Shown piece after piece: positions 10,586 to 26,767 of a DNA stretch of 64,000 nucleotides (position 1 is the stretch's first letter; each line of letters begins with the position of its first letter). A program made the position numbers and the translations under genes. The notes under the pieces are model-generated. The model had not been told where the DNA came from. It did no database searches and worked only from the letters and a program-made list of their open reading frames with translations. Source of the stretch: Alcanivorax sp. REN37 (lineage in GTDB: Bacteria > Pseudomonadota > Gammaproteobacteria > Pseudomonadales > Alcanivoracaceae); assembly GCF_041102775.1 (NCBI RefSeq), contig NZ_JBGCUO010000001.1, forward strand, positions 744,001 to 808,000, in the 5' to 3' direction.

Positions 10586-11932
10586 TCACTGCAATGGACG
10601 TTGCAGCTGGTCGAACACGTCGCAGCCAAAGGCTTCAAATTCATCGACGGTGAAGTAGGCGGTATCCGGCAAGTATTCGCCCATGACCTGGGCCTCATCA
10701 CCGGGCGTGCTGGTGTGCTGTACTGCTTGGGTGAAACCGGGTGCCGGCAGCATGTTACGCAGAATCAGGAAACCGTCGGTCTCGTTGTTGGTGCCCCCTT
10801 CAAACAGGCCGCGCCCATCGCCCGCTTCCGGCCAGGGCAGGAAATTCACCTTGCAAGCGTCCGTAGCGTTACTGGGGCGATCCTGCTCCAGTCCGGTGAC
10901 GATCAAGTACTCGTCGTTGTCGCCCACCAGTAATTGCTCGTCATACAAGCAGGCATTCACCCGCTGGGAGAAGTACTCGTTCTGGCACAGCGACCAGTAG
11001 CGCAGCTCGCTGCCGTTGTCGTCGAAGTGGCTGGCGCCACGGGTCTGGGGCGTTTTCGGCAACTTCCCGCGCAGCACCACCAGCGGTTTGATGGCGCGGT
11101 CCACATAGGAATAAACGTATTGGTTGTCGAGTACCGCGTAGAAACGCACCTCCCGCTGCGCCGGTTGTTGCTCGTGCTCGGCGCATTTGTTCAGGAAGCT
11201 GCAGTCGATATTTACCGTCGAGCTGTAGGCCGCGCGGAACAGTGGCGGATCCATAGCCGGGTTGTTCGCCGCGCGCATGGCGTCATAGGCAGGCGCCGGT
11301 ATCATCGGGATTTTCAGCACTTCGCGGCTGGCTGACAGCTCGGTACAGGCCGCTTCGCCTTCCAGTGTACGGCCGTCGGCCAGCGTTAGTACCGGTGCTG
11401 GTAGCGGCTGGCCGCCTTGGCGATCCAGCCCCGGATCGGCCACATAAACCCGGTACAACACGATGCTTTCGGCTCGCACCAGCTCCACCGTGTTGCTGGC
11501 GCCGTTGGCGTTCTCGGCCAGCGTTACCTGGTAACTACGCTGCGCTTCCGAGCGGGGGTGGCCCGTGCGGAATGGGTTGATGTGGCCTGGCAGCGGTTCA
11601 ATGTCGCGATCCGACAACGTTGAGTAGGGCCGGTCTTCGTCATAGCTGGTCAGCGACATGTAGCGCCCCTGCGGGAAATTGCCATGCAGTTCCAGCGACG
11701 CGCCGGGTGGCAGCTCGAAGCGTGCACTCCAATAGGTGGCGCCGGTGTCGGGATACGCAATGTTGGTCTCCGGAACCTCGCGCACATAGGGGCCGCCCCA
11801 AAAGCAGCTTTGCGCAACTCGAACCGGATTGGATGACGATGAGGAGCTGCCGCCACAACCGGTCAATAGCGCTGCCAGCAGCAGCGCCGAACCGGCAGCA
11901 AGGTGGGACGGTGTAAGGCAAGTCGTTGTCAT
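10586..11932 (-). CDS. Lipoprotein of unknown function
   Basis: A 448-residue exported lipoprotein. The N terminus has a hydrophobic stretch (ALLLAALLTGC) with a lipobox cysteine near residue 26, followed by a serine-rich linker. The mature part contains RFELPPGASLELHGNFPQGR and RYMSLTSYDEDRPYSTL, which look like beta-rich surface repeats, and several cysteines that could form disulfides. I do not recognise a named family with confidence; a distant DUF1254/DUF1214-like fold is possible. Start ATG has AAGGA upstream. It stands alone, with a hairpin behind it. Confidence 0.75.
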   Translation of the reverse strand: MTTTCLTPSHLAAGSALLLAALLTGCGGSSSSSSNPVRVAQSCFWGGPYVREVPETNIAYPDTGATYWSARFELPPGASLELHGNFPQGRYMSLTSYDEDRPYSTLSDRDIEPLPGHINPFRTGHPRSEAQRSYQVTLAENANGASNTVELVRAESIVLYRVYVADPGLDRQGGQPLPAPVLTLADGRTLEGEAACTELSASREVLKIPMIPAPAYDAMRAANNPAMDPPLFRAAYSSTVNIDCSFLNKCAEHEQQPAQREVRFYAVLDNQYVYSYVDRAIKPLVVLRGKLPKTPQTRGASHFDDNGSELRYWSLCQNEYFSQRVNACLYDEQLLVGDNDEYLIVTGLEQDRPSNATDACKVNFLPWPEAGDGRGLFEGGTNNETDGFLILRNMLPAPGFTQAVQHTSTPGDEAQVMGEYLPDTAYFTVDEFEAFGCDVFDQLQRPLQ

Positions 11933-12661: not shown

Positions 12662-13954
12662 GTGCCAATGAAACGCATTCTTTGTGCGGCTGTGGGTGTG
12701 TGTGGGATGGCGAGTGCGCCGGTTTGGGCCTCGATGGGCAATGCGCCGAGCAGTTACGGCATCCTGCCGGGCGATGTCGCCTCCGCCCAGTCGCTGTCGC
12801 TGTTTTCCTCGCAGATTTCTGCGGTCTATTACAACCCCGCTAACTTGGTCAAAGACCGGCGCGGCAGCCTTACGCTCGGCATGCTGCATGCCGACCATGA
12901 CCTCAAGGCCGATGGCCGCCGTATTGAGGACCGTCCCAGCCAGCAGCTGATGCTGGGTCTCAAAACCGATCTGTCGCGACTGACCAGCAGTGATCATCCA
13001 ATCTACTTCGGTCTGATGGCCGGGGTGGAAAAGTACGGCCGCGAAATGCTGTCGTTCTCATCGAACACGCAGAGCGGCCCGCAGTACCTCACCTATGGGC
13101 GTCAGCCGCTGTTTCTCACCGCCGGTATCGGCACTCAGTTGTGGCGCGGCATCGACGCCGGCATCGCCGCGCGGGTGACACTGCATGCGGAGGCCAAGCT
13201 CTACGCCGGCACCAGCCTCGGCGGTGACACCTCCGGTGAGCAGCTGGAGGTATCCGCCAAGCCGGTAGTACGGCCCATCGTCGGCTTCAACCTGCGTTGG
13301 GGCGAAACCTTCTGTGACCAGGCGGAATGCTGGCTCGATAATCTGGAAACCGCGCTGTCCTACCGTGCCTCTTCCAACACCCGCACCAAGGTGCGTGCGG
13401 ACATTACCGTACCGGGGGTCATTCAATCGCCGGGTCTGCAAATGGCGATTCGCGCCTACGACGCTATGCAGCCGGACATCACCACACTCGGTTTCAAATA
13501 CGATTTCGGTGGTATGCGGCTTGGGCTCACCGGTGAATACCAAGCCTGGGGCAAGCAGCAGCGCGACCTGCGACACGACACCATCAAAGACCAAGGCCAG
13601 ATCAATTTCCGCGACATCATCATTCCGCGCGTCGGCATGGAAGTGGACCTCTCCGACAGCCTGATGCTCACCGTCGGTGTTGCCCGCGAGCGCAGCCCGC
13701 TGGCCAGCACTCGCACCCTCGACGTGAACTACATCGATGCCAACAAGACGGTGTTCGGGCTCGGCCTGAGTGCGCAGATTCCGCGCGTGCCGTTGCTGGC
13801 GTGGCCAGTGCAGCTCGACCTCGGTTACCAGTACCAGCACTTGGACAAGCGTGACTTCCAGCTGTCCAGCAGCGCCACACCAGGCAGCTACGCCACTGTC
13901 ACGACGCGCGGCGATGTGAACGTGTTCGTCGGCTCCGTCAGCGTCAACTTCTGA
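12662..13954 (+). CDS. FadL-like outer membrane channel
   Basis: A 430-residue outer-membrane beta-barrel of the OmpP1/FadL type, which moves fatty acids or other hydrophobic compounds across the outer membrane. A signal peptide ends near ASAPVWA. The mature start, SMGNAPSSYGILPGDVASA, and the AVYYNPANL motif near residue 55 are typical of the family. The rest alternates short amphipathic strands and ends in aromatic VSVNF, the usual barrel-insertion signal. The GTG at 12662 is spaced eight bases from GGGAG; an ATG two codons later is the alternative. The large lipoprotein gene follows after 20 bases, so both are probably co-transcribed. Confidence 0.8.
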   Translation: MPMKRILCAAVGVCGMASAPVWASMGNAPSSYGILPGDVASAQSLSLFSSQISAVYYNPANLVKDRRGSLTLGMLHADHDLKADGRRIEDRPSQQLMLGLKTDLSRLTSSDHPIYFGLMAGVEKYGREMLSFSSNTQSGPQYLTYGRQPLFLTAGIGTQLWRGIDAGIAARVTLHAEAKLYAGTSLGGDTSGEQLEVSAKPVVRPIVGFNLRWGETFCDQAECWLDNLETALSYRASSNTRTKVRADITVPGVIQSPGLQMAIRAYDAMQPDITTLGFKYDFGGMRLGLTGEYQAWGKQQRDLRHDTIKDQGQINFRDIIIPRVGMEVDLSDSLMLTVGVARERSPLASTRTLDVNYIDANKTVFGLGLSAQIPRVPLLAWPVQLDLGYQYQHLDKRDFQLSSSATPGSYATVTTRGDVNVFVGSVSVNF

Positions 13955-13974
13955 GCCGGGAGAGGAGAACAATA

Positions 13975-16900
13975 ATGAAAAAGTGGATGCTGCTGGCACT
14001 CACTGCCAGCCTGGCCGCCTGCGGTGGCAGCAAAGATGACGTCAACGCTGATTACGACAACCAGATAGAGCGGCGCAACCAAAACTTGGTGTTCGCCTAT
14101 CCCGCCGCGGGCCAGCACAACGTGCCGGTGACGGCGCCGCTGATGCTGAGTTTTTCCAGCGCCGTGAAACAACCGCATGCGCTGTCACTGCAATTGGTGG
14201 CGGCCGGTCAGCCACCGGTGGCGTTGCACGTAGAGACAGTGGACCAAGGTCGCGGCTTGATGCTGACCCCGGCTGCGCCGCTGCAGCCGCTGACGGCGTA
14301 CCAGCTGGCGTTGCCGGCCATTGATCTGGAAAAAGGCACGGCACCGGCCCGCACTCTCGACTTCAATACCGCACCGCGCTGGGATGCTGCGCTCACCGGT
14401 CAGCAGGGTGACCGCTTTACGGTGGTTAACCAGTGGCCGGCGTTGGATCAGGCGGTGCCGGACTTTGCCAGCTTGCGCTTGCAGCTGAGCCAGCCATTGG
14501 ACCCAGCCAGCGTGCGCTATGGCAATCAGCAAGACAGCACCGTCGCCTTGCTTGATGCCAACGATCAGTTGGTGGCCGCCGATGTACTGGCGGTGGGACC
14601 CTACTTAACCGTGGACCCACGGGCGGACCTGCCTGCCGGCAGCTACCAGTTACTGTTGGGCGGCGGACTGCTCAGCACCGCCGGTCACAGTCTGCCGGGC
14701 AGTGCCGGCAGCGCCGAGACCCGCTATCGCTTCACCGTGGTCGACACCCGGCCGCCGGTAACGGAGAGCAATCGGCAGCGCGAGCGCGCCATGATGCGTC
14801 AGAGCTTGGTCAGCGGCGGCACCAGTGCCTTGACTGGCGCCGCGGTAAATCAGGTGCCGTTGTCCTCGGTACTGCTCGGCGCAGAGGCCGAGGTGGCATT
14901 GGATGGCGACCTGATAGTGGAGCTGGCTCATGCGCCAGCGTTTCCCGCCGCAACACCGTTGCGGCTGCCACGCGGTACCGTGCTGAACGCCAGCAATCTG
15001 GATGTGCAGTTGGGCGGTGAAGTGGCTGCCGGACTGTCCTCCGGCCGCGTGACGCTGGAATTGCTCAGTGATGCCACGGGCGTGCTGCTGGACAACCCCT
15101 ATAGCCGCGCCGCTGATGCGCCGAAGTTGGTGCGCGCCATGATGGACGTGGCGATCAGCGCGGAAGACCCCCGCGCCAACGGTGCCGTCACGCAAACCCT
15201 AATGCACGTCGCTCTGGTGGGCACCGCCCGCGCCCGTGGCGACGACTTGGTGCTGGACGTGATCGCGGTGGCAGAGCCCCAACTGTTGTCTAGTGAATAC
15301 GCCCGCACCCTGATCAGCCTGCATCTGGAAGGTAAACCCACCAGCGGCGTGCGTCCGCCGGTGGACGACCGGGTGCTTGAGCAAGTGCACGCCGGCGCCG
15401 AAGCCGATCCCGCCCGCGTGAACCCTCATGCGCCGCTGACGCTGATGTTCAACAAGGCGATCGCCCTGCAAGACGCTGAGCAATTGTCTCTGACGCATAA
15501 CGGCGTGCCGGTGCCGTTCAGCGCCGCGGTGCGCGGCAGCGCCTTGTACCTGCAGCCGCAGCAGCCGCTGAGTTACGCCCAGCAGCAAGGCGATCAGGTG
15601 CAACCGTCGTTGTACGAACTGAGTTTGGGCACTGGCATCGTCGGCTTGAACGGCGCCGCCGTGGCCGGCAACAGCGGTATGCGCTTGGAGATGCCGGTGC
15701 AGGTGAACGAGGGGCACGAGTACGGATGGAGAATCGAAGATTCCTCGTCCGGTGAGATGCCGCAGTTCATCGACCTTGGTGTTCAGCCTGTGCCACAGCG
15801 CGCGCCAATGTTGTTGGTGACCTATCCCGGTCAGCCGTGCGCCTTGGATCCTGCTTCGCTGGATCTCGCCAACAGCACGGTGGGCTACTGCGCCGGTAGT
15901 TTGCGCGAGCCCTACCGCCGCAAGAAAGTCAGTGATTTGGGGCTCACCGTTGTAGCAGAGCTGTCGAAGCTGCCGGAACCGGATCTGCCGTTGAGCACAC
16001 TGCCGGCCAACCGACCACTGATCACTATTTTTTCCAAGCCCATCGCAGCGTCCTCGGTGCAGTTAGGCGGCAGCTACCAAGTCGAACAAATTGATGAAAG
16101 TGGTCGTTCGCTCGGAGCGGTAGCGGGACGAGTGGAGGTGAATGGGGCGGAGCTGCGGTTCTGGCCGCAGCAGCCCTGGAAAGAGGGCGCACTCTATCGC
16201 TACCGCTTGGCGTCCAACGGAGACCGCCACAGCGCGTCGGCGCAGTGTGATGGTCAGGGCGCCATTTGTGATGTTAGCGGGTTACCGATTCAGACCCAGC
16301 TGCATGCCTTGGAACGGACGCAAGCCCCCATCGAATCCGATAACGAGATCGTCGGATACGACGACATGATCGTGCAATCGGTCAATTTGGCCACCGGAGG
16401 CGGTCCGGACTTGGTGCAGTATTTCCGCGCTGAAGCCAGCAGCACACGGGTTCTGCAAGTGCTTAACGGACCCAGCGTCGATACCAACGGCAACCTGCGC
16501 CATGAGCGCAATGCGCCCTCCCTGATCCCTGCCGAAATGGACCAGATGCGTATTTCCTATATGGAGTACAGCGTTGAGGAAGACGGCGTGGACAGTTCTC
16601 AGCGCGACCCGATGGCGTGTGCGGGTGCTGGCCCCTGTCTTGATCCTGGCGGGATCGCACCGATCCGCAACAGCGCGAAAATCCTGAGCACTACCCTGTA
16701 TGAGCCAGGCGACAACATGTCCATGCCGGGGCTGAACATCGGTTGCGGCTACCTCAATGGCCAGATCCGCGATGACCAGCAGAACGTGATCGCCGGCTAC
16801 GACCGCGCTGAGTGCCCGGAAAACTTGTTCATGCATTTGACCGCGTCCTTGGTGGCGGAAGTGGGCGACTACGACGCGGCGTTGGGCGGTCTGGAAGTAG

Positions 16901-17454
16901 TGGTGCATCCCGCGCAAATCTTCGGAACCTCGCTTCCTATCTACGCCGCCTTCCCGCCACTGGGAGGCGAGAAAGGGGTGCTGGGTATGGACTCCGGTCC
17001 GCAGGTAATGCGGTTGCGCCCTGCGATCGATGACCTCTCTTGCGTCGACGATATTGCGTCTGGAAAGCAGTGCAGCCGCAGTCAACCGATCCGGGGTGTC
17101 ATCCGAGAACAAGATGGTCAGGCGGTGCTTGATCTGACCGTGGACCTCTATGCGGATGCCATGGAGCTTCAGACGCACATCACGGCTATTGCCACCGCGA
17201 TGGGGGTCGAAGGTTTCGGCGATGTGCTGCACGACTTGGTGCAAGTGCCGTTGCAGTTGCAGCTGACGGGGCCGGTGTCTTTCAACGCGGATGGCACCAT
17301 GAAAGTGGCGCAGCAATCGGTTAACGCGCTGGAGCTGCCGCTGAACCTGGTGCTCAACACCTTTGGTACGTATTTCCTGATGGCCGACTACGGCCTGCTG
17401 ATTCCGTCCGGTGGCGCGAAGCTGGAACTGCACACGCAACTGCCACGGCCTTGA
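13975..17454 (+). CDS. Very large lipoprotein with Ig-like (SbsA/Big_5-type) repeats
   Basis: A 1159-residue lipoprotein; signal MKKWMLLALTASLAAC has its lipobox cysteine at residue 16. At about residues 35-130, 155-250 and 470-570 are segments of the form YPAAGQHNVPVTAPLMLSFS followed by LTAYQLAL, resembling bacterial Ig-like domains (Big_5). The C-terminal third lacks that pattern and has paired cysteines. It follows the FadL-like gene by 20 bases. An outer-membrane FadL protein paired with a lipoprotein recalls the AupA/AupB alkane-uptake pair of Marinobacter, but homology to AupB is not established here. Function remains inferred from context. Confidence 0.7.
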   Translation: MKKWMLLALTASLAACGGSKDDVNADYDNQIERRNQNLVFAYPAAGQHNVPVTAPLMLSFSSAVKQPHALSLQLVAAGQPPVALHVETVDQGRGLMLTPAAPLQPLTAYQLALPAIDLEKGTAPARTLDFNTAPRWDAALTGQQGDRFTVVNQWPALDQAVPDFASLRLQLSQPLDPASVRYGNQQDSTVALLDANDQLVAADVLAVGPYLTVDPRADLPAGSYQLLLGGGLLSTAGHSLPGSAGSAETRYRFTVVDTRPPVTESNRQRERAMMRQSLVSGGTSALTGAAVNQVPLSSVLLGAEAEVALDGDLIVELAHAPAFPAATPLRLPRGTVLNASNLDVQLGGEVAAGLSSGRVTLELLSDATGVLLDNPYSRAADAPKLVRAMMDVAISAEDPRANGAVTQTLMHVALVGTARARGDDLVLDVIAVAEPQLLSSEYARTLISLHLEGKPTSGVRPPVDDRVLEQVHAGAEADPARVNPHAPLTLMFNKAIALQDAEQLSLTHNGVPVPFSAAVRGSALYLQPQQPLSYAQQQGDQVQPSLYELSLGTGIVGLNGAAVAGNSGMRLEMPVQVNEGHEYGWRIEDSSSGEMPQFIDLGVQPVPQRAPMLLVTYPGQPCALDPASLDLANSTVGYCAGSLREPYRRKKVSDLGLTVVAELSKLPEPDLPLSTLPANRPLITIFSKPIAASSVQLGGSYQVEQIDESGRSLGAVAGRVEVNGAELRFWPQQPWKEGALYRYRLASNGDRHSASAQCDGQGAICDVSGLPIQTQLHALERTQAPIESDNEIVGYDDMIVQSVNLATGGGPDLVQYFRAEASSTRVLQVLNGPSVDTNGNLRHERNAPSLIPAEMDQMRISYMEYSVEEDGVDSSQRDPMACAGAGPCLDPGGIAPIRNSAKILSTTLYEPGDNMSMPGLNIGCGYLNGQIRDDQQNVIAGYDRAECPENLFMHLTASLVAEVGDYDAALGGLEVVVHPAQIFGTSLPIYAAFPPLGGEKGVLGMDSGPQVMRLRPAIDDLSCVDDIASGKQCSRSQPIRGVIREQDGQAVLDLTVDLYADAMELQTHITAIATAMGVEGFGDVLHDLVQVPLQLQLTGPVSFNADGTMKVAQQSVNALELPLNLVLNTFGTYFLMADYGLLIPSGGAKLELHTQLPRP

Positions 17455-17458
17455 CGAG

Positions 17459-17488
17459 AGCGCTCCCGGCGTTCGCGCTGGGAGCGCT
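17459..17488 (+). terminator. Hairpin between large lipoprotein and PraB-like gene
   Basis: AGCGCTCCC and GGGAGCGCT form a 9-bp stem around a 12-base loop, four bases after the lipoprotein stop. Only a weak T-rich tail follows. It may partly terminate the upstream transcript, letting the PraB-like gene be expressed separately. Confidence 0.45.
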
Positions 17489-17592
17489 TGAGTTTGGATC
17501 GGTACTACCGGCATGGATGCCGACCTGTATCAAACCGCCGTTCACACGGCATCAGTTCTCCACATCACAATAACCACATAGGAAACGCTAGG

Positions 17593-18108
17593 ATGAAAAA
17601 AGTAATGATCGCGGTCACGGCGGGTCTGGTCGGCCTGATGGCCATCAACACGGCTCAAGCTCTGACCATCAACGGCGGCAATGGCCCGCACACCTTTACC
17701 GGCACTGCGGACCTGTCCAAAGGCTCGCTGACGCTGCGCAATTGCACCTTGACGCTGACCGGTACTGTCGAAGAGGCGGCGGGTAACATGGTGATCAATG
17801 TGACCAGTGGCAGTGCTTCCGGTGCGGGCTTGTGCAGCAGCGTAAAGCTGAACTTCCCGTGGACGGCTTCGGTGCCGGTGTCGTCGATTCCGACCACTCC
17901 TAACGCCACTGTCAACGGTACTTTCACCAACGTGGATGTCGGTACCCCGCTGGGTAAATGCACCAGCAGCCCGGGTTCCATCGGCGCCGTGTTTGGGCCC
18001 ATCAACGGCTCTACTGGCGGCAGCTACTTCAAGTTCAACAGCAGCTTGGGTACCTGCACCGTCAACGGTCAGGTGGACAACAGCACCGTGTCTGTGACAA
18101 ACCCGTAA
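17593..18108 (+). CDS. PraB-like small secreted protein
   Basis: A 171-residue exported protein. The signal peptide MKKVMIAVTAGLVGLM... ends at AQA about residue 23. The mature part is rich in Gly, Ser, Thr and Asn, with beta-strand repeats (LTLRNCTLTLTGTV) and about five cysteines. It resembles PraB, the Pseudomonas secreted protein reported to promote alkane oxidation, but identity is low-certainty. The chosen ATG fits the signal peptide start; AGGA lies about ten bases upstream. Position behind the FadL-like channel and large lipoprotein suggests a shared role with hydrophobic substrates. A strong terminator follows. Confidence 0.6.
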   Translation: MKKVMIAVTAGLVGLMAINTAQALTINGGNGPHTFTGTADLSKGSLTLRNCTLTLTGTVEEAAGNMVINVTSGSASGAGLCSSVKLNFPWTASVPVSSIPTTPNATVNGTFTNVDVGTPLGKCTSSPGSIGAVFGPINGSTGGSYFKFNSSLGTCTVNGQVDNSTVSVTNP

Positions 18109-18126
18109 CAGTGTTTTAAGAAACAG

Positions 18127-18158
18127 AAAAACGGGGCGGTTTTCAGCCCCGTTTTTTT
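18127..18158. terminator. Bidirectional intrinsic terminator
   Basis: AAAAACGGGGC and GCCCCGTTTTT form a stem around a short loop, with T-runs in both directions. It ends the PraB-like transcript and can also serve the convergent methyltransferase gene, whose stop overlaps its right edge. Confidence 0.9.
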
Positions 18159-18998: not shown

Positions 18999-21527
18999 TC
19001 AACGCTGGGCTTGGCCGATGCGCTCCCACATGCGCAGGTAGGCTTCAGCCGAGGTGAACAGCTGGTTCACCGCGTCGTCGATCTCCTCCGGTGAGCGGTC
19101 ACTGTGCAGGATCATGTCGGCGATCTGGTCCGGGTAAAGACCGTAATGCGCTACTCCGCGCCCCTCGAACAGGCTGAACTCATGATCGCCGGTGCGTTGC
19201 ACGTCAAAGCTCACGCGCCCGTCCACCGAGGTAAACGGATACAGTCGCTCGAAGTCCTCGGCGCCGCCACCGTTGCCGGCTAGCGCTGCCATACCGTTCA
19301 CATCAGAGGCAAAGCCGGCGCCGCCAAACGGGCCCACATGCTGGCCGGCTGGCCGCTGGCGGTGACCGTTGTTACGCAGGGCATCGACCCAGCCGCCACG
19401 AGTGCCAGCGAAGTCAGCGGTAATACCGCCCTGAGCCGCGATTAGATCGCGGATCGCATTACTGCCGCCCCAACTCCCGTGACTGTTGATCACCGGGTAA
19501 TTGCGGCCCTGGGTGACGGCCAGGATCTGGCGTGCGGCTTTTTGGCTGATGTGGTCGGTTTCGATCATCATCTGCCGCTTCATTAGTTCCTCGATTAGGA
19601 AATAGCCCAGCGTCGACAAGCCGCGGCTGTTGCACAAATGACTGGTGCCGCGGCGTGGATCGATTTGCGCCAGCGGGCCGGGCGCGCCGGGCAGCACGTT
19701 GCCGATGAACTCCAGGTGGTACAGCAACTGCTCGAAGATGCCGCCGGGTGACAACGCTTTGAGAGAGTTGCCGTCGGTTTCCGGCGCGTCTTCGTCGAAG
19801 GCGCATTCCTCAAACTCGATTGGATGCAGCGTTTCGAGGATATTGCCCACATACAGCACCGTGCCGATGCCGAACCCGGCCGATAGATCAGGCAGGTGGC
19901 CGCCGAAGCTGTTGTCGAACTTGTGCACCGGGAACAGGCTGCGCACACCGAGGTTGTAGAGCCGGTCGAGGTTCTCCAACACCTGCTTTTCGGTGCACAT
20001 CGCCATGCCCAAGTTTTCACCGCAGTTGAGCACTTGCGAGGTTTCGACGCCGAGAATTACCGCCATCTTGCCTTCGGAAATCACTTGTCGTGCCTGCGCC
20101 GGATCGGTCACCAGCTGGAACCAACCGAGGCCGGGGCCGCCGTGCTGGGCGTCGATGTAGTCCTGCATGTCTTTCATGCGCCGGGCCTGTAGTTCGATGC
20201 TGGCCATGCTGTCGCATTCGTTCTTTTTCTGCGGATTGATCTGACACAGCACCTCGTTGTGCACCAGATGGTTGACCATCACTTTCAAGCCGGCCAAGTG
20301 CGCGCGTTCAATCCAGCGATAGTAGGTTTGGTGGTGCTGAAGCGAGTCGTTGCGCGGCCAATATCCGTAGCTAGGCCAGCCTTTAGTGTCGTGTGGGCCA
20401 GGGTTGCTGGTGAGGTGCTCTACCAGCCCGGTCATGCCGAACGGGCCGTGGTGTACCGAGCAATCATCCAAGGCATGGTCGACGCCGAATTTATGGAAGG
20501 GCGCGCCGTAGTTCACCCGGCCGCCAATGAACTCAAACGCCGAAATGTGGGTGTGAGTGTCGACAAAACCGTAGATGTCATCGTCTTCAATGCCAGCGAC
20601 ACCGCGAAACCGGTCAACCTCGTTCAGATAGATTGCTGGCGCCTCGTGCACGGTGGCATTGAGTTCGGCTTCCGGGTATTCGGCACAGCCGTCGGCTTGC
20701 TCAAAGCGAAAACGGGTGTCGGGGCCGGCGACCGACGGCGACACCATACTCAGGCTGCCGCCGCCACCGGCACCGAGCACCAGTCCGGTGACCCGCGAGC
20801 GAATCTGGTATTGCTCGTCATCGCCAACCGGATTAAGCGCCCAGATCGACAGGTCGTTGGCGTCTTTCACCATGCCAAGGCGCGGCGCCACCGAAATGTC
20901 GCTGACTTTGCCGCCGATGCCGGTGACCAGTTCGCCGAGGCTGCGTACCAATTTGCCGAGCGGCGCGATCGGGTCCAGCACCAGGTTCAGGGTGTCGCCC
21001 AGGCCGGCCACCAAGTAGCCCAGCTCACCGACAAAGTTACCGGCTGGATCAAGGAACAGGTCGGCCGGGTCGCTGATGCCAAGCAGTTGTTTACTGCCGC
21101 GCTGGCCGGCATTGCGTTGGTAGTCAGACAGCAGCAGATACTCACCCAGCGCTGCCGGTTTGAAGTAGAACGGGCTGGCGTGTTGGGGGTTATCCGTGAG
21201 GTCGTAGCGGCTTTTTGAGGGATTGGCGCTCAAGTAGCGGCCATCGCTGCTGGCCACTCGGTAGCAGGCGTTGGCGAATTGATAGCGGCCGGCGGGCCGC
21301 TGCGCCACCGGGGGATTGCCGCCTTCGCCGCCGTCACCGCCATCGTCATCATCGTCATCATCGCCGGGCAGTTCTGGTTCGGTGACGCCGGGCTGTTCCG
21401 GGCCGCCGGTGGCGGGCCGGGCGCTGCCACTGCTGCTGCCGCCGCAGGCACTGAGGGACAAACACAATACGCCGAGCAGCAGCCACGGCAACGCGGCCCG
21501 CTCCCGTAGGAGGGTCGAGATGGACAT
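18999..21527 (-). CDS. Large lipoprotein metallohydrolase (amidohydrolase/dipeptidase-like)
   Basis: An 842-residue exported lipoprotein. The hydrophobic N terminus ends in LSLSAC, then comes a linker with seven consecutive Asp plus Gly. Residues about 80-270 look like a beta-trefoil or carbohydrate-binding-like domain. From about 310 it resembles metal-dependent TIM-barrel hydrolases: FVDTHTHISAF is the HxH metal motif, MVNHLVHNEV, VILGVETSQ and MIETDHISQKA follow the strand pattern of renal-dipeptidase/amidohydrolase enzymes, and NSHGSWGG supplies a late histidine. The ATG at 21527 is preferred over 21536 because AAAAGGA is then eight bases upstream. The substrate is unknown. Confidence 0.75.
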   Translation of the reverse strand: MSISTLLRERAALPWLLLGVLCLSLSACGGSSSGSARPATGGPEQPGVTEPELPGDDDDDDDGGDGGEGGNPPVAQRPAGRYQFANACYRVASSDGRYLSANPSKSRYDLTDNPQHASPFYFKPAALGEYLLLSDYQRNAGQRGSKQLLGISDPADLFLDPAGNFVGELGYLVAGLGDTLNLVLDPIAPLGKLVRSLGELVTGIGGKVSDISVAPRLGMVKDANDLSIWALNPVGDDEQYQIRSRVTGLVLGAGGGGSLSMVSPSVAGPDTRFRFEQADGCAEYPEAELNATVHEAPAIYLNEVDRFRGVAGIEDDDIYGFVDTHTHISAFEFIGGRVNYGAPFHKFGVDHALDDCSVHHGPFGMTGLVEHLTSNPGPHDTKGWPSYGYWPRNDSLQHHQTYYRWIERAHLAGLKVMVNHLVHNEVLCQINPQKKNECDSMASIELQARRMKDMQDYIDAQHGGPGLGWFQLVTDPAQARQVISEGKMAVILGVETSQVLNCGENLGMAMCTEKQVLENLDRLYNLGVRSLFPVHKFDNSFGGHLPDLSAGFGIGTVLYVGNILETLHPIEFEECAFDEDAPETDGNSLKALSPGGIFEQLLYHLEFIGNVLPGAPGPLAQIDPRRGTSHLCNSRGLSTLGYFLIEELMKRQMMIETDHISQKAARQILAVTQGRNYPVINSHGSWGGSNAIRDLIAAQGGITADFAGTRGGWVDALRNNGHRQRPAGQHVGPFGGAGFASDVNGMAALAGNGGGAEDFERLYPFTSVDGRVSFDVQRTGDHEFSLFEGRGVAHYGLYPDQIADMILHSDRSPEEIDDAVNQLFTSAEAYLRMWERIGQAQR

Positions 21528-21654
21528 GCCTCGCATCCTTTTTTGTTGTGGTTATTCGTGTGGACAGATTTGGTACGAATATCCCACTGCGAGACCGGTG
21601 CCTGTGTTGGATTCTTGTTGCAGTTATTAAGACGAAGGTGCCGAAATGTTATGG

Positions 21655-23364: not shown

Positions 23365-24381
23365 TCAGCTGTCGCGTTGCAGTGCCGCGAGGAATTCCGA
23401 TGGCGGCACGCCTTCCCAGCGCCGGAATGCCCGGCGGAAATTAGCCATGTCGCTGTAACCGAGCAGGTACGCCAATTCCTGCAGCGGCACCCGGCCGCTG
23501 CGCAGGTGCTCCACCGCCAGCATGTGGCGTAGGTCATCACTCAGTTGCTTGAACGAAGTGCCCTCGGCGGCCAGATGCCGGTGCAGCGTGCGTGGCGTCA
23601 TGTGCAACTGGCGGCACACTTCCTCCAGCGTCGGGAATCGGCCTTGGCGCTCCAGCAGATAGCGGCGGATGCGTTGGCCGAGGCGGTCATCAGCACTCAG
23701 TTGCTCCAGCGTCTGGCGGCACAGCGCCTGGGCGCTTTCGAACGCCATCGGGTCGGCCAGCCGCAGTGGCACATCGAGCCGGCTGCGGTCCAACACCAAA
23801 CCGGTCCAGCTGGCCTGGTCATGCACCGGAACGCGGAACAGCGTCTGCGCCAGCGCTAGGTTGTCTGGTGCGGCGCAGTCGAACGCCACCGCCGTTACCG
23901 CATCGTGATCGCGGGTGATGAAGTCGAAAATGTGTTTGATCGCCAACAACACCGCTTCAGCGAGAAAGCGCTCGGTGGCGCCCAGCGGCACCGCCGCGGT
24001 CAGCTGCAAGCGCAGACCGTCAGCGTGCGGTTCCGGTGTCAGCGCCAGCAGCGTGATACGCACCCGCAGGAAGGTCACCAGCAGATCAATGGCATCGCGC
24101 AGGGTGGTGGCGTTCATCGCCGCATAGCCGAGCACGCCGTGGGTCTGCACCGGCAGCCGCTCGCCCAGCAGCAGCCCCAGATCGGCACGGCCGCTGTGGC
24201 TCAGCGATTGCTCCACCAGCTGCTGGAACGCCCGCCAAGGTAGTCGCAGCAGCGCGGTGTCCAGCTGTGACCGCTGCAATCCGGCTGCCGCCAAGCAGCG
24301 ATCGAAATCACCACCCAGGCTGTCCACCAATTCACCGAGCTGCTGCAAGTACAGGCTGGGCAACACAATTGTCAGCGACAT
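23365..24381 (-). CDS. AraC family transcriptional regulator
   Basis: A 338-residue regulator. The first two thirds are an arabinose-binding-like (PF12625, OruR/ArgR-type) ligand domain; the last 100 residues hold two helix-turn-helix motifs, TLEEVCRQLHMTPRTLHRHL and LQELAYLLGYSDMANFRRAF, ending GVPPSEF. It is divergent from the ferredoxin reductase/hydroxylase pair and probably activates it, as AraC proteins do in several alkane and aromatic pathways. The 146-bp gap to the reductase contains a weak inverted repeat ATGAC-N8-GTCAT at 24428-24445. Confidence 0.9.
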   Translation of the reverse strand: MSLTIVLPSLYLQQLGELVDSLGGDFDRCLAAAGLQRSQLDTALLRLPWRAFQQLVEQSLSHSGRADLGLLLGERLPVQTHGVLGYAAMNATTLRDAIDLLVTFLRVRITLLALTPEPHADGLRLQLTAAVPLGATERFLAEAVLLAIKHIFDFITRDHDAVTAVAFDCAAPDNLALAQTLFRVPVHDQASWTGLVLDRSRLDVPLRLADPMAFESAQALCRQTLEQLSADDRLGQRIRRYLLERQGRFPTLEEVCRQLHMTPRTLHRHLAAEGTSFKQLSDDLRHMLAVEHLRSGRVPLQELAYLLGYSDMANFRRAFRRWEGVPPSEFLAALQRDS

Positions 24382-24527: not shown

Positions 24528-25553
24528 ATGTTCAGCTGGTTCAAGAAAAACAAAAATCACAGTGCCTGGGTCAACCAACATGCGGTGCCGGTGGCGGCGC
24601 GCGAAACGTTGCTGCAGGCCGGCTTGCGGGCCGGTCTGGATATGCCCTACAGCTGCCGCGTGGGCGGCTGCGGTACCTGCAAATGCAAGTTGGTGGACGG
24701 CAAAGTGCGCCAGCTCACCGACTTCAGCTATGTGCTGTCGGAACAGGAAATGCAGCAGGGTTACATCCTCGCCTGCCAGTCGGTGCCGCTCGGTGAGATT
24801 CGCGTCGAGGCGGTGCTCGACCGGCCGCTGGCGGCTGCCCAGCAGGTCGGTGGCCGGGTGCTGGCACAGCAGCGGCTGACCCACGACATCATGCTGCTGC
24901 GGGTGCGGCTGGATGACAGCCTGCGTTATCTCGCCGGCCAGTATGTGGAGCTGTCGGTGGCGTCGCTGCCCGGCGTCGCCCGCAACTACTCATTCGCGAC
25001 CGCGCCGAGCCATGACGGCATCGCGGAATTTTTTGTGCGCCGCGTGCCCGGCGGCCTGTTCTCGGCGCATATCAATGACCAGCAGTTGGTCGGCGAGGCG
25101 GTGTCGCTGCGCGGCCCGCTGGGCGACTTCCATCTGCATCCCGGCACCGGCCCGTTGCTGATGGTGGCCGGTGGCAGCGGTCTGGCGCCGATCCGGGCCA
25201 TCTTGCAGGACGCTGCTGCCCAAGGGTTGGCGCGCCCGGTGCGGGTGCTGTTCGGCGCCCGCCGTCAACAGGATTTGTACCTGCTTGATGAACTGGAGCA
25301 ACTGGCTCGCCAATGGCCGGCCGCGTTCAGTGTGCTGCCGGTGTTGTCCGAGCCCGGTGATGACGATTGGACCGGCGCCCGCGGCCTAATTACCGAACAC
25401 TTCGGCGCAGTGTCGGCCGACACCGACGCCTACCTGTGTGGCCCACCGGTGATGGTGGATGCCGCCAGTGACGTGCTGCGGCAGCAGGGAATTGATCCTG
25501 CGCGTATCCATGCCGACCGCTTCCTGACGCAACCGCTGGCTGCAGCGGTGTAA
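24528..25553 (+). CDS. 2Fe-2S ferredoxin/FAD reductase (XylA-like electron transfer component)
   Basis: A 341-residue fused electron-transfer protein. Residues about 1-95 are a plant-type ferredoxin domain with CRVGGCGTCKC and a distal Cys in LACQS, four ligands for a [2Fe-2S] cluster. Then comes an FAD domain with RNYSFAT and an NAD domain with VAGGSGLAPI and YLCGPPVMV. It passes electrons from NADH to the membrane hydroxylase encoded 35 bases downstream, as XylA serves XylM. GGGAG precedes the ATG. This differs from classic AlkB systems, which use separate rubredoxin and rubredoxin reductase. Confidence 0.9.
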   Translation: MFSWFKKNKNHSAWVNQHAVPVAARETLLQAGLRAGLDMPYSCRVGGCGTCKCKLVDGKVRQLTDFSYVLSEQEMQQGYILACQSVPLGEIRVEAVLDRPLAAAQQVGGRVLAQQRLTHDIMLLRVRLDDSLRYLAGQYVELSVASLPGVARNYSFATAPSHDGIAEFFVRRVPGGLFSAHINDQQLVGEAVSLRGPLGDFHLHPGTGPLLMVAGGSGLAPIRAILQDAAAQGLARPVRVLFGARRQQDLYLLDELEQLARQWPAAFSVLPVLSEPGDDDWTGARGLITEHFGAVSADTDAYLCGPPVMVDAASDVLRQQGIDPARIHADRFLTQPLAAAV

Positions 25554-25588
25554 CCCCGACCACTCCAACAACAATCACGAGGTCTGTC

Positions 25589-26767
25589 ATGAAACTGCTG
25601 CATTACCTGAAGTATTTCCTGTTCCACGGCATCGGCCTGGCCAGCGTGTTGGCCCTGCTGGCGGGCGGCAACTGGATCATCGCCGGGTTCGTCGCCATCG
25701 TGCTGTTCTATGTGCTGGGCGACGCGCTGCTGGGTGACGACACCACCACGCCGGAATTCAATTTGCCCGGCGTGTTGACGGTGCAGTTGTGGCTGGCGCT
25801 GCCGCTGATGGCGCTGATCACCTTTGTGTCGGTGTGGAGCATGCTTGGCACCGACCCGTTCGGCTTCGGCGCTTGGATCGGTGCGGTCAGCGGCTATGAC
25901 GTGCTTGCCGCGCGGGCGGCCAACACCTGGCTGCATCATCTGTTCGGCGTACTGCTCACCGGCTTGATGATCGGCATCATCGGCACCGTCACCGCCCACG
26001 AATTAACCCACCGTACCTGGGACAAAGTGTCGATGCTGATCGGCCGTTGGCTGCTGGCGTTCAGTTTCGACACCATTTTTTCCATCGAGCATGTGTACGG
26101 CCACCACCGCTACGTGGCCACCATCGACGACCCGGCCACCGCGCCGCGCGGCCGCAACGTCTACTACCACGTGCTGGCCTCCACCTGGAAAGGCAACGTC
26201 AGCGCCTGGCGTATTGAGAAAGCGCGGCTGGTGCGCGTCAACAAGGGGCTGTGGTCGGTGAGCAATGCGTTCCTGCGCGGCCACTTCATGAGCCTGTTGC
26301 TGGTGGCGGCGGCCTGGGCGCTGGGCGGCTGGACCGCGGCGCTGTACTTCACTGCCTGCGCATTGTGGGGCAAGTCGCTGCTGGAAATCGTCAACTACAT
26401 GGAGCACTACGGTATCGTGCGTGACCCGTCCACGCCGGTGCAGCCGCGCCATTCTTGGAACACCAACCGCCGGGTCAGCTCCTGGACCATGTTCAACCTG
26501 ACCCGTCACTCGCACCACCACGCTCAAGGGGAGGTGCCGTACCAAGACCTGCGGCCGTTCCCGGATGCCCCCATGATGATTGGCGGCTACCTGACCACCA
26601 TCATCGTGGCACTGCTGCCGCCGCTGTGGCACCGCCTGATGACGCCGAAAGTGATCGCCTGGGACCGTGACTATGCCTCGCCCGGCGAGCGTAAATTGGC
26701 GGCCGCGGCCAGCCAGCGCAGTGGTATGCCCGCCTTCATCGAAGCGGCCGGTACGCTGTCGCAATGA
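25589..26767 (+). CDS. Membrane di-iron hydroxylase (AlkB/XylM family)
   Basis: A 392-residue integral-membrane non-heme di-iron monooxygenase. Four or more hydrophobic helices are visible, with histidine boxes HELTHR (about 137), EHVYGHH (about 167), NYMEHYG (about 269) and RHSHHH (about 306). AlkB proteins carry HExxHK, EHxxGHH, NYxEHYGL and QRHSxHH, so the spacing fits, while the details and the XylA-like partner point to a XylM-type relative. The likely reaction is terminal hydroxylation of an alkane or an aryl methyl group. It is co-transcribed with the reductase (GAGG site before the ATG). The substrate cannot be decided from sequence. Confidence 0.85.
   Translation: MKLLHYLKYFLFHGIGLASVLALLAGGNWIIAGFVAIVLFYVLGDALLGDDTTTPEFNLPGVLTVQLWLALPLMALITFVSVWSMLGTDPFGFGAWIGAVSGYDVLAARAANTWLHHLFGVLLTGLMIGIIGTVTAHELTHRTWDKVSMLIGRWLLAFSFDTIFSIEHVYGHHRYVATIDDPATAPRGRNVYYHVLASTWKGNVSAWRIEKARLVRVNKGLWSVSNAFLRGHFMSLLLVAAAWALGGWTAALYFTACALWGKSLLEIVNYMEHYGIVRDPSTPVQPRHSWNTNRRVSSWTMFNLTRHSHHHAQGEVPYQDLRPFPDAPMMIGGYLTTIIVALLPPLWHRLMTPKVIAWDRDYASPGERKLAAAASQRSGMPAFIEAAGTLSQ

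Follow-up and report, generated by a model that had tools for sequence, protein, structure and literature searches.

Little is understood of how Gram-negative oil degraders bring alkanes through their envelope, and AupAB belongs to the few systems backed by genetic evidence. A 64,000-nucleotide (nt) stretch of the Alcanivorax sp. REN37 genome (contig NZ_JBGCUO010000001.1, positions 744,001 to 808,000; hereafter the window, to whose full length all coordinates refer) carries three consecutive genes for a FadL-type channel, a large lipoprotein and a small secreted protein, and raises the question of whether these form such an uptake system and what the third gene does beside it. We read the locus as an aupAB operon, the genome having five in all, that acts in alkane uptake, a function assigned by analogy with Marinobacter and to which we give a probability of about 0.85. 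The three open reading frames given in a preliminary description of this DNA are confirmed at their positions, and its interpretation is partly supported. What looks new is the domain layout of AupB with its conserved lipid anchor, together with the conserved neighbourhood of a praB-like gene; in other respects the system is of a type already described, and the additions are modest.

The reference for comparison is Marinobacter hydrocarbonoclasticus SP17, in which aupA and aupB are separated by 11 nt, co-transcribed and induced by alkanes, and their products co-immunoprecipitate, interact, and are required to bind and incorporate micelle-solubilised hexadecane, mutants having lost micellar hexadecane uptake (Mounier et al., 2018, PMC5989066). 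The window pair shares with it the gene order, a short gap, a FadL-type first protein and a large second lipoprotein with immunoglobulin-like (Ig-like) domains. The first gene (12662..13954, + strand), starting from GTG at 12662 or possibly from ATG at 12671, encodes a FadL-type outer-membrane channel of 430 amino acids (aa) with a Sec signal peptide. It matches the AupA model of NCBIfam (NF041571) over its full length (residues 4-430 of 430; E-value 1.7e-150, 501 bits), which bears out the outer-membrane FadL-type channel of the preliminary description; the layout was said there to recall AupA/AupB, and the first two genes are indeed aupA and aupB themselves. The Pfam model Toluene_X (FadL/TodX) matches its C-terminal part with 24.6 bits, under its cut-off. 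AupA homologues are present in all 41 good-quality Alcanivoracaceae genomes among the 46 searched. Proteins above the curated equivalog cut-off of the AupA model (840 bits) occur in another family of the same order (group f20/g27), whose genomes we take to be Marinobacter since the published AupA stems from there. The window pair differs from the AupAB of such an above-cut-off genome in that AupA is 47% identical over 419 columns and AupB 27%, with an AupA score below the cut-off.

The second gene, aupB (13975..17454, + strand), follows on the same strand after 20 nt, with a strong ribosome-binding site (AGGAG), and encodes a 1159-aa lipoprotein. The preliminary description had called it a giant lipoprotein with Ig-like domains, much larger than a simple AupB partner. 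Its Ig-like character and lipid anchor are upheld by a Big_5 match (Pfam, 3.7e-16) and a lipobox (LAA followed by C16), but its size is that of a normal AupB, because the gene lying 10-14 nt after aupA in the above-cut-off genomes encodes a homologous lipoprotein of 1060-1133 aa, and the window protein aligns with the 1060-aa partner end to end (residues 1-1152 versus 1-1048, E-value 6e-97). The idea of an oversized lipoprotein was rejected by 61 aligned AupB homologues, which have a median of 1075 aa and usually span about 1000-1240 aa. In the loci fetched, 67 pairs of same-strand neighbours were found among 73 AupA, separated by -56 to 47 nt, mostly 9-14. A Marinobacter homologue, annotated as "Ig-like domain containing protein", was 4.6-fold up on hexadecane (PMC7822026). 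We regard the gene identities, family membership and operon layout of aupAB as established, together with the conserved linkage, lipobox and predicted fold described below.

How such a protein may be built is suggested by its AlphaFold model, computed with 61 sequences (predicted local distance difference test, pLDDT, 88.8; predicted template modelling score, pTM, 0.89). Four Big_5/Ig-like domains lie at about residues 36-134, 146-257, 476-590 and 664-752; they are mutually related with probabilities of 96-98% in profile comparison, and Pfam also supports them in relatives. Between the second and the third lies D1 (residues 258-456, coding segment 14746..15342, + strand), a predicted closed eight-stranded beta-barrel, and a C-terminal beta domain, D2, takes up residues 776-1159. 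Foldseek and VIA gave clear matches of the whole protein for the N-terminal Ig-like domain alone, which resembles CopC, L,D-transpeptidase and S-layer Ig domains. D1 is the most conserved part of AupB (45% mean column identity, 61 sequences) and, modelled alone, again gives a closed barrel (pLDDT 88.7, pTM 0.80). VIA aligns it with OmpA/OmpW/NspA at Z 12-13, with the YceI-type polyisoprenoid-binding protein TT1927b at 10.8 and with BcnA/BcnB at 9.5-10.5. The predicted fold resembles those of YceI/polyisoprenoid-binding proteins and BcnA/BcnB lipocalins, although D1 has no sequence relation to them and is embedded in a multi-domain lipoprotein, and the scores of OmpA/OmpW barrels are no lower. 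Its aromatic content is about half that of AupA (4.9% versus 9.3%), which would favour a soluble lipid-binding barrel over a membrane-spanning one. D1 and D2 can be aligned collinearly over 126 columns (E-value 0.004), and D2 may be a diverged duplicate of D1; we keep this as a suggestion because the hhalign probability is just 8%.

The lipid anchor is conserved throughout, with the lipobox Cys found in 60 of 60 AupB proteins whose start was included and followed at +2 by Gly in 54 and Asp in 3. The classical +2 rule, which comes from E. coli, predicts the outer membrane for a Gly at this position. The location so predicted from sequence mismatches the published fractionation, in which AupB was found mostly with the inner membrane and a small share with AupA; the word "lipoprotein" is absent from the main text of that paper (PMC5989066).

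The third gene is, by its profile matches, a member of the PraA/PraB superfamily encoding a signal-peptide protein, and has no place in the textbook aupAB operon. Its longest open reading frame runs from a TTG (17488-18108, + strand), but the start is most likely the ATG at 17593, giving a secreted protein of 171 aa (17593..18108, + strand) with conserved Cys positions and a Sec signal peptide (MKKVMIAVTAGLVGLMAINTAQA) ending in AQA. NCBIfam describes PraA and PraB (NF041561/NF041562) as "alkane oxidation protein activator", small Sec-secreted proteins, and the small secreted PraB-like protein proposed earlier holds at superfamily level: the matches (PraA 2.5e-8, PraB 9.5e-8) reach 33.6 and 31.9 bits against curated cut-offs of 150 and 120, and unlike PraA/PraB the window protein is located beside aupAB. 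PraA/PraB are characterised as secreted, surface-active and stimulating alkane oxidation; of these traits the window sequence displays the signal peptide. The family alignment comprises 15 members, PDB sequence searches for the PraB-like family gave nothing meaningful, and a literature search on PraB function returned no useful paper. Between aupB and this gene lie 138 nt (17455..17592, + strand) with a GC-rich hairpin at about 17458-17488 (-40.2 kcal/mol, z -4.0) that lacks a T-run, and an intrinsic terminator with a 13-pair stem and then a T-run follows the gene (18125..18158, + strand; z -5.1).

The linkage of praB-like genes to aupAB is real. The preliminary description had named the lack of joint occurrence in relatives as speaking against its reading, but the three genes do occur together: aupA and aupB are neighbours in almost all loci sampled, and in 172 aupA loci from 46 Alcanivoracaceae genomes, examined with a profile of the PraB-like family, a praB-like gene stands just past aupB in at least 30 loci and at least 22 genomes; these linkage counts are lower bounds, since some contigs end early. 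The family has at least 79 matches; at least 39 lie downstream of an aupA at a distance of up to 12 kb and at least 5 upstream, against about one downstream match expected by chance (our own estimate, 12 kb for each of 172 loci divided by roughly 170 Mb). A location-unbiased search of the 46 family genomes with the window PraB-like protein alone likewise gave, for the most part, copies next to aupAB. Several clades of the AupA tree contain linked loci, with 4 label changes versus 12.8 in shuffles. The window locus differs in this respect from aup loci outside Alcanivoracaceae, where none of 15 sampled carried a praB-like gene. As observations on copy arrangement, two to four praB-like genes stand in tandem downstream of aupAB at L144 (G008:C21) and L129 (G002:C1), and at L144 two adjacent aupA genes precede a single aupB.

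Put together, these features suggest a route in which AupA, as a FadL-type barrel, would admit alkane through the outer membrane, and AupB, lipid-anchored and with four Ig-like spacers and at least one eight-stranded barrel of the hydrophobic-ligand type, would take it from AupA and hand it on in the direction of the inner membrane, the site of the AlkB-type hydroxylases. In part of the family, the secreted PraB-like protein would most likely bind or disperse alkane outside the cell for capture by AupA. The outer- and inner-membrane location of the proteins, the AupA-AupB interaction and the need for both in micellar hexadecane uptake are carried over from Marinobacter by analogy; alkane binding in the barrel, the direction of hand-over and the PraB-like role are what we infer. 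The domain plan would fit the published proposal that AupB carries alkane to the inner membrane, and the praB-like gene next to it may encode one of the extracellular proteins that, according to the same authors, may act as natural micelles (PMC5989066). The predicted plan also offers a concrete, testable mechanism for AupB, in which a lipid anchor holds a ligand barrel and Ig spacers, and the conserved praB-like gene is a possible source of the extracellular carrier of alkane that AupAB is presumed to need. A bolder version, which we consider unlikely, is a three-part route in part of Alcanivoracaceae, where a secreted PraB-family protein would solubilise alkane as a natural "micelle", AupA would capture it, and AupB would convey it through the periplasm inside a lipocalin-like barrel (possibly two, D1 and D2, by duplication); if true, it would supply the missing extracellular component postulated by the AupAB authors.

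Several results weigh against this picture. The 501 bits of AupA lie below the equivalog cut-off, which no copy in the 46 Alcanivoracaceae genomes passes, so that the protein is a family homologue and not a certified equivalog, and the paralogues may differ in substrate range. Foldseek found no significant match for D1 (best E-value 4e-3), which makes the likeness to known barrels a common arrangement and not a demonstrated relationship; the VIA matches are spread over several unrelated barrel families that score alike, and ligand binding by AupB is a prediction. The preliminary description had the three genes in a row, which stands for the window, where all are on the + strand, but the shared direction is exceptional: among the matches listed, 28 of the 30 linked loci have a convergent praB-like gene and two, the window locus and G003:C26, a co-directional one, and the linkage is thus not normally an operon, nor is co-transcription conserved. 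A search for a common upstream motif or sigma-54 site before aupA and praB copies yielded nothing consistent. It is possible, though not what we would bet on, that the locus is an aupAB paralogue with another substrate than Marinobacter AupAB (e.g., long-chain or branched alkanes, wax esters, fatty acids or terpenes), the praB-linked copies being one specialised set. The five aupAB copies of this genome are divergent, praB linkage occurs only in some AupA clades, and functional divergence is listed by the published authors as one possible cause of multiple copies (PMC5989066), but the invariant positions of AupB are conserved across all clades. Such a difference in substrate would refine the alkane-uptake reading, and the two are not fully exclusive.

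Somewhat less probable, and in our view rather unlikely, is that the praB-like gene rides along as a passenger in a neighbourhood that is multi-copy, mobile and rich in insertion sequences (IS), and is no functional partner of AupAB. Its usual convergence would fit, as would the IS transposases that separate the praB-like gene from aupB in several genomes, tandem duplication of PraB-like genes in some, and 142 of the 172 aupA loci having no praB-like gene within 12 kb among the matches listed, some contigs ending early. Neither the excess of family matches downstream of aupA over chance nor the few label changes on the tree is what a passenger would leave, and all three window-type aupAB pairs of this genome, in separate parts of the chromosome, have a praB-like gene. 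Highly improbable, finally, is a FadL/VolA-like pair, in which the lipoprotein would be a surface lipase freeing fatty acids or other lipids that the channel then imports. In Vibrio, a large lipoprotein lies beside a FadL homologue in the same layout, and the prevailing Gly at +2 would place AupB in the outer membrane, but the sequence family of the second gene is AupB, Pfam and NCBIfam place no lipase or other enzyme family on it, no direct comparison with VolA having been made, and the predicted structure consists almost wholly of beta strands, its few helices being short, and lacks the alpha/beta-hydrolase pattern.

Turning to copy number, the five aupAB pairs of this genome, two of them in tandem on contig 2 and without a praB-like gene, agree with the multiple copies published for Alcanivorax (PMC5989066). 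A scan of a collection of genome contigs with AupA yielded one distant locus and no more. A second aupAB with a convergent praB-like gene (L009, C1:1165000-1184000) adjoins a phage-type integrase, which suggests mobility of such loci. As for hydrocarbon oxidation, two proteins of this genome have canonical AlkB motifs, no match to a P450 was found in it, and a third AlkB/XylM-type monooxygenase lies with a ferredoxin-type reductase inside the window, about 7 kb downstream of the aup locus. There, a BenC-like ferredoxin/flavin adenine dinucleotide (FAD) reductase adjoins a membrane di-iron protein of the AlkB/XylM type (24528-26767, + strand; HELTHR, EHVYGHH, NYMEHYG, RHSHHHA), and with the divergent AraC-type regulator (23365-24381, - strand) it is probably a hydrocarbon monooxygenase module. 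Nearer to the aup locus, and on the opposite strand, a 448-aa lipoprotein of no family flanks it upstream (10586-11932, - strand), and past a methyltransferase gene follows an 845-aa lipoprotein with a match to membrane dipeptidase M19 (18999-21536, - strand).

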